Shown here: one piece after another, positions 60,734 through 64,000 of the stretch
Numbering within the stretch: position 1 is the stretch's first letter
Layout: every line of letters starts with the position of its first letter
Source: an uncultured Clostridia bacterium
Lineage (GTDB): Bacteria > Bacillota > Clostridia > Christensenellales > Borkfalkiaceae
Direction of reading: 5' to 3'
Assembly: GCA_944338165.1 (NCBI GenBank)
Contig: CALVLN010000004.1
Location: 62,001 to 126,000 of the forward strand
Length of the DNA: 64,000 bases
Notes under the pieces: generated by a model
Told to the model about the DNA's origin: nothing
The model's input: only the letters and a program-made list of their open reading frames with translations
The model's database searches: none
Position numbers and translations under genes: made by a program

Positions 60734-61555
60734 TCAATCCAGCAAAGCGGAAAGGAGGCGGTCCGAAGGGTAAAAGGCGGGCATCCCGAGGACGCGCCTG
60801 CCGCCGTCCGCGTGGAAGTCCGATCCGCCCGTAACGAGGAGCCCGCAGCGCTCCGCGATGCGCAGGAAATATTCCGTTTCCTCCGCAGTATGCGCCGTAT
60901 ATACGCATTCTATCCCGTCCAGCCCTTCCGCGCAGAGGCGGGCAATGAGCGCTTCCCGCTCGCAGAACGGAAGCGCGATGCGCCCCGGATGCGCAAGCAC
61001 GGCAATGCCGCCGAGCGCGTGGATGACGCGGATCGCCTCGGACGGCGAGGGGCGGAACAGATCGGAATACGCGGGCATGCCCTTATCGAAGTACGCCGCG
61101 TACACCTCCTTCAGCTTGCGCTTCAAGCGCACGGAGAAGGCGCGCACCACGTGCATGGTATGCAGCGGCGTTTCCTTTTTGAGGTGAAAGCGCTCCACCT
61201 CGGACATGGTCACGTCAAGTCCTAGGCAGGCGTTGGCTTTTTCCACCATATCCCTTGCCCGCAGCGCTCCGCCGCGGCGGCGCTCTTCCAAAAACGCCTC
61301 GTAAGCCGGGCCTGCGGCGCAGCGGTACCCGAGCACGTGCACTTTGCCGCCTTCATAGGAGGAGACCTCCCAGCCCGGCACGAAGCGCAGCCCGCAGGAT
61401 GCGGCGGCCGCCGCCTTCTCCGCCATGCCGCTCATATTGTCGTGGTCGGTCATGGAGAGAAACTCCACGCCCGCCTCCGCGGCGCGGGCGGCGAGTTCCT
61501 GCGGCGTAAACGCGCCGTCCGAATAGACGGTATGCAGGTGCAGGTCGGCTCTCAC
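60734..61555 (-). CDS. PHP-domain metal phosphoesterase (5'-3' RNase/nuclease type)
   Basis: 273 residues starting at GTG 61555, overlapping the recF stop (GTGA). RADLHLHTVYSDGAFTPQEL and FLSMTDHDNMSG supply the metal-binding His/Asp; VLAHPGR, VTGGSDFHADGG complete the PHP site. Close to the TrpH/RNase AM family acting on 5'-phosphorylated nucleic acids or pAp; the exact substrate is not determined. Confidence 0.88.
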   Translation of the reverse strand: MRADLHLHTVYSDGAFTPQELAARAAEAGVEFLSMTDHDNMSGMAEKAAAAASCGLRFVPGWEVSSYEGGKVHVLGYRCAAGPAYEAFLEERRRGGALRARDMVEKANACLGLDVTMSEVERFHLKKETPLHTMHVVRAFSVRLKRKLKEVYAAYFDKGMPAYSDLFRPSPSEAIRVIHALGGIAVLAHPGRIALPFCEREALIARLCAEGLDGIECVYTAHTAEETEYFLRIAERCGLLVTGGSDFHADGGRRVLGMPAFYPSDRLLSALLD

Positions 61556-62637
61556 GATACGATCTTCCCTCCCCGGATCATGATCTTGTTGGTCTCCCGC
61601 CCGTAAAGTACGCGTTCGGCATGCGTACAGGTAAGGATGCATTGGATCCCGCCCACCCGCGCGAGAAGCTTTTTGCGGCGGGGAAGATCGAGTTCGCTCA
61701 TCACGTCGTCCAGGATGAGCACGGGCGCTTCCCCCGCGCGCTGTTTGAAGATCTCCACTTCGGCGAGTTTGAGCGCAAGCGCCGCCGTGCGCGTCTGCCC
61801 CTGCGACGCAAATCCCTTGGCGTCGCGCCCGTCGATGCGGATGCGCATATCGTCGCGGTGCGGGCCGACCGTGGTGAATCCCAGGCGCATGTCGCGCTCG
61901 TAAGAGGCGGAAAGCTCCCGGAGAAGATTTTCCGCGATCTCTCCCTCCTCCTCGCCGTAATCCTTCTCCCAGCCCACGGAAAGCGTCTCCGCCCCGTCCG
62001 TGAGGTAGGCGTGCGCCTCGGCGGCGAGCGGCGAGAGCATGGAGACGAATTCCTTGCGCTGCCGCACGACGGTGGCGGCGTAGCGGGCAAGCTGCTCATC
62101 CCAGACGGGGAGCGTCTCCAAGATCATGGAAGCATCCCGCTCTTTGAGCAGGTTGTTGCGCTGTTCCAGGATCCTGCTGTACCGCAGCAGCGCCGTGCAG
62201 TAGCTGCGCGACGTCTGGGAGATGGAGAGATTGAGAAAACGCCTGCGCTCGTCCGGACCATCCTGGATGAGCCGCAATTCCCCCGGGGAGAAAAAGACGC
62301 TGTTCATATTGCCCAGAAGGTCGACGGAGCGGGCGATCTTCACGCCGTTGACGCGCAATTCCCGCCCCGATTCGAAGATATCCGCCTGCAGCGTGACGTT
62401 CCCGTAACGGCTGACCGCCTCGGCGCGCACGCAGGCGCGGTCGGCGCCCTGGCGGATGAGCTGACGATCGTGCCGGATGCGCAGCGAAGCGCCCGTGCAG
62501 AGGTAAAACACCGCCTCCGCACAGTTGGTCTTCCCCTGTGCGTTCCGCCCGAACAGCACGTTGATGCCGTCGGAAAAGCAAAACGTCTCGTCCTCATAAT
62601 TTCTGAAGTTGTGCAGGGTCAATTTTTTTATGATCAT
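61552..62637 (-). CDS. recF: DNA replication/repair ATPase RecF
   Basis: 361 residues from 62637 (MIIKKLTLHNFRNYEDETF). Walker A GRNAQGKTN (30-38), signature SFFSPGELRLIQDGPDERRRFLN-type motif, Walker B LILDDVMSELD. Loads RecA at gaps. In most Firmicutes recF follows dnaA-dnaN; here it runs away from dnaA on the other strand. The ribosome-binding site is weak. Confidence 0.95.
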   Translation of the reverse strand: MIIKKLTLHNFRNYEDETFCFSDGINVLFGRNAQGKTNCAEAVFYLCTGASLRIRHDRQLIRQGADRACVRAEAVSRYGNVTLQADIFESGRELRVNGVKIARSVDLLGNMNSVFFSPGELRLIQDGPDERRRFLNLSISQTSRSYCTALLRYSRILEQRNNLLKERDASMILETLPVWDEQLARYAATVVRQRKEFVSMLSPLAAEAHAYLTDGAETLSVGWEKDYGEEEGEIAENLLRELSASYERDMRLGFTTVGPHRDDMRIRIDGRDAKGFASQGQTRTAALALKLAEVEIFKQRAGEAPVLILDDVMSELDLPRRKKLLARVGGIQCILTCTHAERVLYGRETNKIMIRGGKIVS

Positions 62638-62685
62638 TTCCGGGAAACTTCCGCAAAAACACTTTCTTTTTCGGCGGTTTTGTAC

Positions 62686-62713
62686 TATACTGTAAGGGAA
62701 CAATGCGAACCCG
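62686..62713 (-). repeat. 28-bp element facing recF
   Basis: On the minus strand CGGGTTCG, eight bases, CCTTACAGTATA, then GTACAAAAC. A TATAGT at its end may be a -10 box. Inverted partner of 62940-62967. Confidence 0.7.
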
Positions 62714-62939
62714 CCTTTTGCGGCATCTTTTTGGCGTCTTGCCGTTCATCGTCTTTGCAATACGAGGGTATTGCCGCATCCTCTTCGCGGCAAACCATCC
62801 GAAAAATCCTGCCGCAGAAGGTGCAAAGCAATCAAAAGCCGTATAATTTGCGGTCAGGCGCGGCGAAAGGCACAGCGCGTGCCGTGTGGCACGGGCAAGC
62901 CTTTCAACAATGCATCACCGCAAACTTGGCGCTTTTGAT

Positions 62940-62967
62940 CGGGTTCGTTTTACCCCCTTACAGTATA
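62940..62967 (+). repeat. 28-bp element facing dnaA
   Basis: CGGGTTCG, eight bases, CCTTACAGTATA; 23 of 28 positions equal the recF-facing copy. Followed by CCGTAAGGGA and then ACAAAAC, also shared with the other copy. Confidence 0.7.
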
Positions 62968-63062
62968 CCGTAAGGGAACAAAACGCGCGGTGCGATACAC
63001 CGATCGATACACCAATATTATAGCAAAAACCGCGCGATTTACAAAGCGTTTCAGGGGAAAAA

Positions 63063-64000
63063 ATGGCGGAAAAGGCACAGTTTGAATTTTTATGGGAAAA
63101 AATACGCGAGCGGGCAGAAAAAACCATCCACCCGCTCTCTTACGGCATGTTCATCGAACCGCTCGTCCCCGTGGACGTCGTCAACAAAAAGATCGTCCTG
63201 AAGGCGGGAACGGAAATGGCGGCCGCGCAGATCATGAAGAGCTATACCAAACAGCTGCAGGACGCCATCCAGACCGCGGACGTCGGGCTCAACGGATTCC
63301 ACATCGTGGTGGACGGCAGCCAGACGTACACGCTCAACGAGGAGCCGGACGCGCTCGAGGAGACGGAGTCCGTCGCGCTCGACGCGCGCTTCACCTTTGA
63401 TTCCTTCGTCGTCGGCCCTTCCAATAAATTCGTGTATGCGGCGGCAAAGTCCGTCTCCGAAACGCCGGGGGAAAACTTCAACCCGCTCTACATTTACGGC
63501 GGAACGGGGCTCGGCAAGACGCACCTCATGCAGGCGATCGCCAACGAGATCACGGCAAAAAAACCCTCGCTGAAAGTGCTGTACACCACGAGCGAGCGCT
63601 TCCTCAACGAATTTGTGGACAGCATCGCCAAAAAGAGCAGCGGGAAGGACAGCGAGGCGCGTTTCCGCAACCGCTACCGCAACGTCGACGTGCTCATCAT
63701 CGACGACATCCAGTTCTGGGCGGGAAAATACGGGGTGCAGGAAGCGTTCTTCCACACCTTCAACGATTTGGTGGCGCAAAACAAACAGATCGTCATTTCG
63801 TCCGACTGCCCCGCCAAGGAGCTGACGACGCTTGAGGAACGGCTGCGCACCCGCTTTGAAGGCGGCCTCATCGCCGACATCCAGCCCCCCGACCTCGAGA
63901 CGAAGATCGCCATCTTAAAGCGCAAGGCGCTGGAAAAGAAATGCGTCATCCCCAACGACGTGCTTGCCTTCCTCGCCAAAGGATCGGACAACAACGTGCG
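63063..64000 (+). CDS. dnaA: Chromosomal replication initiator DnaA (partial)
   Basis: First 312 residues; the gene continues beyond the window. ATG at 63063 after AGGGGA. Domain I (1-80: FEFLWEKIRERAEKTIHPLSYGMFIEPLVPVD), a short acidic linker, then AAA+ domain III: FDSFVVGPSNKFVYAAAKSV, Walker A GGTGLGKTH (146-154), Walker B VLIIDDIQF, sensor I VISSDCPAKEL, and the arginine-finger region EERLRTRFEGGL. The DNA-binding domain IV is outside. Its position defines the right edge as origin-proximal. Confidence 0.96.
   Translation, partial: MAEKAQFEFLWEKIRERAEKTIHPLSYGMFIEPLVPVDVVNKKIVLKAGTEMAAAQIMKSYTKQLQDAIQTADVGLNGFHIVVDGSQTYTLNEEPDALEETESVALDARFTFDSFVVGPSNKFVYAAAKSVSETPGENFNPLYIYGGTGLGKTHLMQAIANEITAKKPSLKVLYTTSERFLNEFVDSIAKKSSGKDSEARFRNRYRNVDVLIIDDIQFWAGKYGVQEAFFHTFNDLVAQNKQIVISSDCPAKELTTLEERLRTRFEGGLIADIQPPDLETKIAILKRKALEKKCVIPNDVLAFLAKGSDNNV

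Follow-up and report, generated by a model that had tools for sequence, protein, structure and literature searches.

The window analysed here is a stretch of 64 000 nucleotides from an uncultured Clostridia bacterium, an organism known from assembled metagenomes alone. Towards its end the list of open reading frames places a gene on the minus strand (61552-62637, ATG at 62637), which we take to be recF by protein similarity and the first annotation, and dnaA on the plus strand (63063-63998; protein match in 59/61 genomes), which runs off the window. Between the two genes, 28-bp inverted repeats bound positions 62686-62967, just where the original prediction had placed them: the left repeat (62713-62686, minus strand) reads CGGGTTCGCATTGTTCCCTTACAGTATA and the right one (62940-62967, plus strand) CGGGTTCGTTTTACCCCCTTACAGTATA, with 23 of 28 positions equal and 226 bases between them. 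Searching the whole genome for the repeat pattern returned these two sites and one copy with three mismatches on another contig (0 matches for the reversed pattern as control). In a BLAST comparison of the recF-dnaA region with 40 relatives, many matches were limited to 62686-62967 (75-87% identity). As the relatives' matches share these limits, the pair represents the two ends of one repeated unit rather than a chance resemblance. The unit proper is 276 bp long (62689-62964, plus strand; ACTGTAAGGG...CCCTTACAGT), its limits being set by the sharp ends of 20 or more copies with unrelated flanks, by empty sites and by the junction statistics given below. Its terminal inverted repeats, defined by the 23/28 inverted match and a genus-wide pattern search, lie at 62689-62713 (plus strand) and 62940-62964 (minus strand), and the list of open reading frames holds no plausible gene inside it; it is thus short and non-coding, as a miniature inverted-repeat transposable element (MITE) would be. 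The remark that similarity resumes beyond the right repeat was also right: the right flank (62964-62985, plus strand, TATACCGTAAGGGAACAAAACG) equals 62686-62707, the left end, at 19/22 positions by eye. Solo ends are common in congeners, and this stretch is most likely the relic of another copy's end. Standing directly 3' of the element, it creates the palindrome CCCTTACAGTATACCGTAAGGG.

With the 463-bp recF-dnaA intergenic sequence as query, 22/41 genomes gave a match of one of two kinds, some limited to 62686-62967 and others covering only the recF end. An alignment of 22 copies with the window copy has sharp ends, (A)TACTGTAAGGGA... and ...TCCCTTACAGTAT, outside which the flanks are unrelated. 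The ends were found genus-wide in 19/103 genomes, one of which (G018) holds 44 end matches, while the reversed pattern gave 0. Matches are carried by Candidatus Gallimonas, Candidatus Coproplasma and uncultured Clostridia, with up to about 20 element copies per genome in the first two, and the same unit of about 276 bp stands at dozens of unrelated loci, before many unrelated genes. Copies are absent from the recF-dnaA regions of about 30 congeners that we inspected. The multi-copy ends found across the genus, together with the unrelated flanks, identify the unit as a dispersed mobile element rather than a regulatory pair specific to this locus. There are also mini elements, about 62 bp long and consisting of the two ends only (G075:C1:2407-2469, G075:C7:1360-1421 and G080:C5:27852-27913). 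Solo or truncated ends lie at promoters just upstream of gene starts at three loci (L291, G018:C4:52000-52450; L109; L104), and two of the genes there resemble XRE-type regulators, judging from their first residues. Three end patterns tried on viral contigs found none.

Three occupied sites could be compared with orthologous empty sites in congeners. In each, the insertion is into a -10 hexamer (TATAAT) and AT is duplicated: an empty site reads e.g. TTGACT-N18-TATAAT, and the occupied one TATA-CTGTAAGGG...CCCTTACAG-TATAAT. The dinucleotide AT stands at the left junction in 63/64 copies and at the right junction in 63/64, a target duplication of the kind expected of a MITE. The outermost junction bases are T in 51/64 and A in 52/64, and the 4-bp flanks are identical in just 42/64 copies. 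These junctions are most simply explained by duplication of the 2 bp AT, with TATA as the preferred context. Duplication of all 4 bp (TATA) was dropped, since the mismatches are confined to the outermost bases, and a TA duplication is ruled out by the empty sites. An IS630/Tc1-mariner-derived MITE (TA duplication, DDE_3 transposase) was rejected accordingly, as the empty sites fit AT (or TATA) but not TA and PF13358 was absent in 14 genomes. Among other candidates for the parent transposase, PF01609 was likewise absent and PF00665 had matches without element ends, so that these searches yielded no transposase bearing the ends of the element; assemblies from metagenomes often break at repeats. 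At the window site congeners read TTTTGTACTATAAT and here we find TTTTGTACTATACTGTAAGGG, with AT at 62687-62688 and again at 62965-62966, so that the element, by this alignment, sits inside the -10 hexamer of the predicted dnaA promoter and splits it. At two positions in one other genome (G075:C48:9834-9856 and G075:C54:7868-7890) the sequence ATACTGTAAGGGAACAGTATAAT has 16 extra bp between AT repeats at a -10-like box and might be the footprint of an excision.

Because the element begins with ACT, the left junction reads TATACT. The predicted dnaA promoter (62657-62691, plus strand) accordingly combines the native AAACACTTT and a weak -35 region with a rebuilt -10, TATACT, at 62686-62691, where congeners have TATAAT; the earlier idea that the repeat ends act as -10 hexamers therefore stands for the left end, which replaces the native box in the congener alignment. 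Opposite lies a predicted recF promoter (63017-63051, minus strand; AAACGCTTT..TATAAT), found by pattern search and conserved in congeners. An inverted pair facing recF and dnaA does exist, as had been proposed, but it is not formed by the 28-bp copies; it is the promoter-like pair 62657-62691 (plus) and 63051-63017 (minus), kept in nearly all congeners examined. Of 31 congener sequences inspected, almost every one places the dnaA promoter nearer to recF and, on the opposite strand, a recF promoter of like sequence nearer to dnaA; the two are usually within about 120 bp of each other, compared with 324 bp here. The pattern AAACRCTTT-N17-22-TATAMT occurs in this genome at these two sites only; we do not claim AAACRCTTT as a regulator site specific to dnaA and recF, for similar sites occur elsewhere in other genomes. 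If both predicted promoters are used, both transcripts would cross the element and the divergent recF and dnaA leaders would overlap. Long recF-dnaA gaps in two further genomes (G045 and G013) turned out not to hold this element.

The rebuilt box is not peculiar to dnaA. A TTG lies 17 or 18 bases upstream of the left-junction hexamer in 18/63 copies, as against 4/63 for right junctions (Fisher p=0.0018), and at other spacings from the left junction TTG occurs about 1.25 times per position (30 over 24 positions). From these counts it is the left end, not the right, that preferentially comes to lie under a native -35. Near the right end 23 gene starts were counted and near the left 14, a difference that is not significant (p=0.19), and orientation tests based on open reading frames are too noisy to be relied on. 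It seems, from truncated and solo ends at promoters, that the rebuilt -10 is sometimes kept after the rest of the element has been lost.

The interior of the element is dominated by predicted secondary structure. The window copy folds with z = -9.1 on the plus strand and z = -8.5 on the minus strand, and the consensus fold of 24 copies consists of a terminal stem plus two long hairpin arms, with 97.1% of cells paired, both-sided changes in 29/74 pairs and a covariation of 0.277 (0.107 when shuffled, at most 0.079 when slid). Arm 2 (62829-62941, plus strand) is a conserved hairpin common to elements of other Bacillota, detected with both covariance models (R1 and R2) in order-wide and phylum-wide searches. 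Arm 1 (62712-62823, minus strand) is a diverged inverted copy of it, recognised by model R2 (16.6 bits, E=0.0012) and by both-sided changes in the consensus fold; other elements (L365, L399 and L377) show this head-to-head arrangement more clearly. From our reading of the alignment columns, an internal loop C[AA]G / C[GCA]G is conserved and occurs twice per hairpin in inverted orientation; in distant taxa the outer of the two loops is the better kept. Searching Rfam with the window and related elements gave no relevant match, and the right hairpin is absent from that collection of structured RNA families.

A covariance model of arm 2 found the hairpin in 44 of 396 genomes of the order (17/142 genera), many of them with several copies, and a second model, built from a cross-genus alignment, found it in 14 of 398 genomes drawn from the phylum (13/267 genera). 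Across taxa both sides have changed in 29/31 pairs and covariation is 0.662 (0.191 shuffled), figures that are favoured by the fitting of the cross-taxon alignment to the model. In the same model-fitted alignment G-U pairs exceed A-C mismatches by 86 to 21; within the unfitted Gallimonas alignment the counts are 27 and 16. Some of the compensatory changes could have arisen by template switching within palindromes rather than by selection. In other taxa the hairpin is usually flanked closely by inverted repeats of unrelated sequence, among them ATACCAGACCAGAATAATACGAAC, ATACCTGGTAAG, TTAGGCAAACTG and CTAGTACC(N)TGTMAACCCTAAA, and the elements so delimited mostly span near 160 bp (one hairpin) or 275-295 bp (two). 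Tested against a null of mismatched flank pairs (left with right), these repeats lie above the 99% level at 29 of the 41 distant loci and do not exceed the null at the other 12. The same hairpin inside elements with unrelated terminal repeats indicates that the hairpin, and not the ends, is the conserved unit. A second hairpin in the window's own genome (L405, G000:C2:62841-62932) has other possible ends, AACCTATCCAAAG, below the 99% level, and in other genera of the order (L392, G387:C2:292239-292669; L391, G265:C18) the hairpin stands in tandem series about 150-160 bp apart.

Taken together, the interval is very probably one copy of a non-autonomous, MITE-like element that has inserted into the -10 hexamer of the dnaA promoter and rebuilt it, probably leaving itself as a folded leader; its core is a conserved hairpin. 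Terminal inverted repeats and multiple dispersed copies of polymorphic presence are both in place for a MITE. The sequences support well that it inserts into AT, preferably T-AT-A and very often in a promoter -10 hexamer, that it duplicates the AT, and that the junction TAT|ACT re-forms the -10 with its original distance to the native -35. In the rest of the mechanism that we propose, the transposase would be supplied in trans and transcription would start inside the left end, so that the dnaA mRNA would begin with nearly the whole element as its probable folded 5' leader, and the recF transcript would carry the element's complement. Such a structured leader might shield the 5' end of the host mRNA, by which promoter insertions would be tolerated. 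A specific role in the regulation of DnaA or RecF is not needed for any of this. Given that elements with unrelated ends carry it widely across Bacillota, the hairpin probably has a strand-specific function of its own, as folded RNA or as single-stranded DNA; we favour the RNA form, though this is our judgement and not a finding. Tentatively, we go one step further and suggest that the hairpin, with its twofold-symmetric internal loops, may be a mobile module in its own right, either RNA or single-stranded DNA in folded form, which many unrelated sets of transposon ends across Bacillota have acquired or which has outlived them, kept because it protects the host mRNAs whose promoters it enters or because it is recognised for movement, and which here would have taken over the dnaA 5' leader.

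The same structural data could be read for DNA alone. The hairpin would then be folded single-stranded DNA that is recognised for movement as attC sites or IS200/IS605 ends are, without any function as RNA. Its conserved unpaired bases and the twofold symmetry of its internal loops would suit such recognition, as would the retention of the hairpin while the terminal repeats differ, and G-T wobble pairs in DNA would bias the strands just as G-U pairs do. The clear terminal inverted repeats and the AT duplication, however, suggest a transposase acting on double strands, and a non-exhaustive search found no recombinase linked to the copies; we regard this reading as rather unlikely. Alternatively, the element might be a MITE of the ordinary kind in decay, whose long palindromic interior stays self-complementary through template switching during replication, the hairpin being functionless. 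Passages of a review on MITEs state that their transcripts commonly fold (PMC10969869), both strands of the window copy fold about equally well, and the G-U excess within Gallimonas is weak. Decay of this kind is nevertheless difficult to reconcile with the conserved unpaired bases, with the strand-specific G-U excess across taxa and with one hairpin common to elements with unrelated ends, and we consider it unlikely.

The two functions first proposed for the inverted repeats fare far worse than these. Duplicated promoters or operators under one regulator that coordinates dnaA and recF would explain the symmetric placement facing both genes and the -10-like TATACT in the repeat, but the proposal is refuted by the empty sites: congeners lack the copies at this locus, the same unit is dispersed before many unrelated genes, and its ends are those of a mobile element with target duplication, which makes such a shared control highly improbable. 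That the interval, which adjoins dnaA, belongs to the replication origin, its inverted sites enclosing a replication element, can be practically dismissed, as the interval and its surroundings hold no DnaA box (TTATNCACA, up to one mismatch) and counts of this box in the window are at chance level, the insertion is absent in congeners and other copies lie elsewhere in genomes. The search across the genome and its relatives thus went against both proposals, the element being neither conserved at the locus nor confined to it. Inverted repeats beside dnaA should therefore be taken as origin or operator sites only with caution.

Among known systems, RUP and BOX of Streptococcus pneumoniae are likewise dispersed, intergenic, folded repeats, differing from the present element in sequence and host; RUP is considered MITE-like and has TA as its target. 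MITEs are normally recognised by ends borrowed from an insertion sequence. Here the ends differ and it is a folded, deeply conserved core that is shared, so that the role of the core calls for explanation. The attC sites and the subterminal hairpins of IS200/IS605 likewise combine a mobile unit with secondary structure in which particular bases are unpaired; to our knowledge neither has terminal inverted repeats and target duplication of the kind found here. The IS200/IS605 transposase is described as recognising structure (PMC6006769). Prokaryotic MITEs are characterised in review passages as shorter than 500 bp, with terminal inverted repeats and a target duplication, without a gene, intergenic, and with transcripts predicted to fold (PMC10969869); a core with cross-genus covariation and unrelated ends is not described in those passages. 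Closest in its effect on promoters is the Correia element (CREE) of Neisseria, a small non-coding repeat with inverted ends that begin with TATA, in which a -10 within the first six bases and a native -35 form the Snyder promoter; it becomes part of the mRNA, has TATAG[CT]GGATTAA as its end sequence and, in the paper concerned, is recorded only in Neisseria (PMC2649163). The element described here is alike in its TATA-beginning inverted ends and in supplying the -10 to a native -35, but its ends are TATACTGTAAGGG rather than TATAG[CT]GGATTAA, which places it outside the CREE family. An insertion that rebuilds the -10 box illustrates how the promoter of a housekeeping gene, in this case the replication initiator, could be captured by a mobile element without being silenced. 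The present element differs from CREE further in that the insertion point is the -10 of existing promoters, that AT is duplicated, and that the hairpin core is common across Bacillota.
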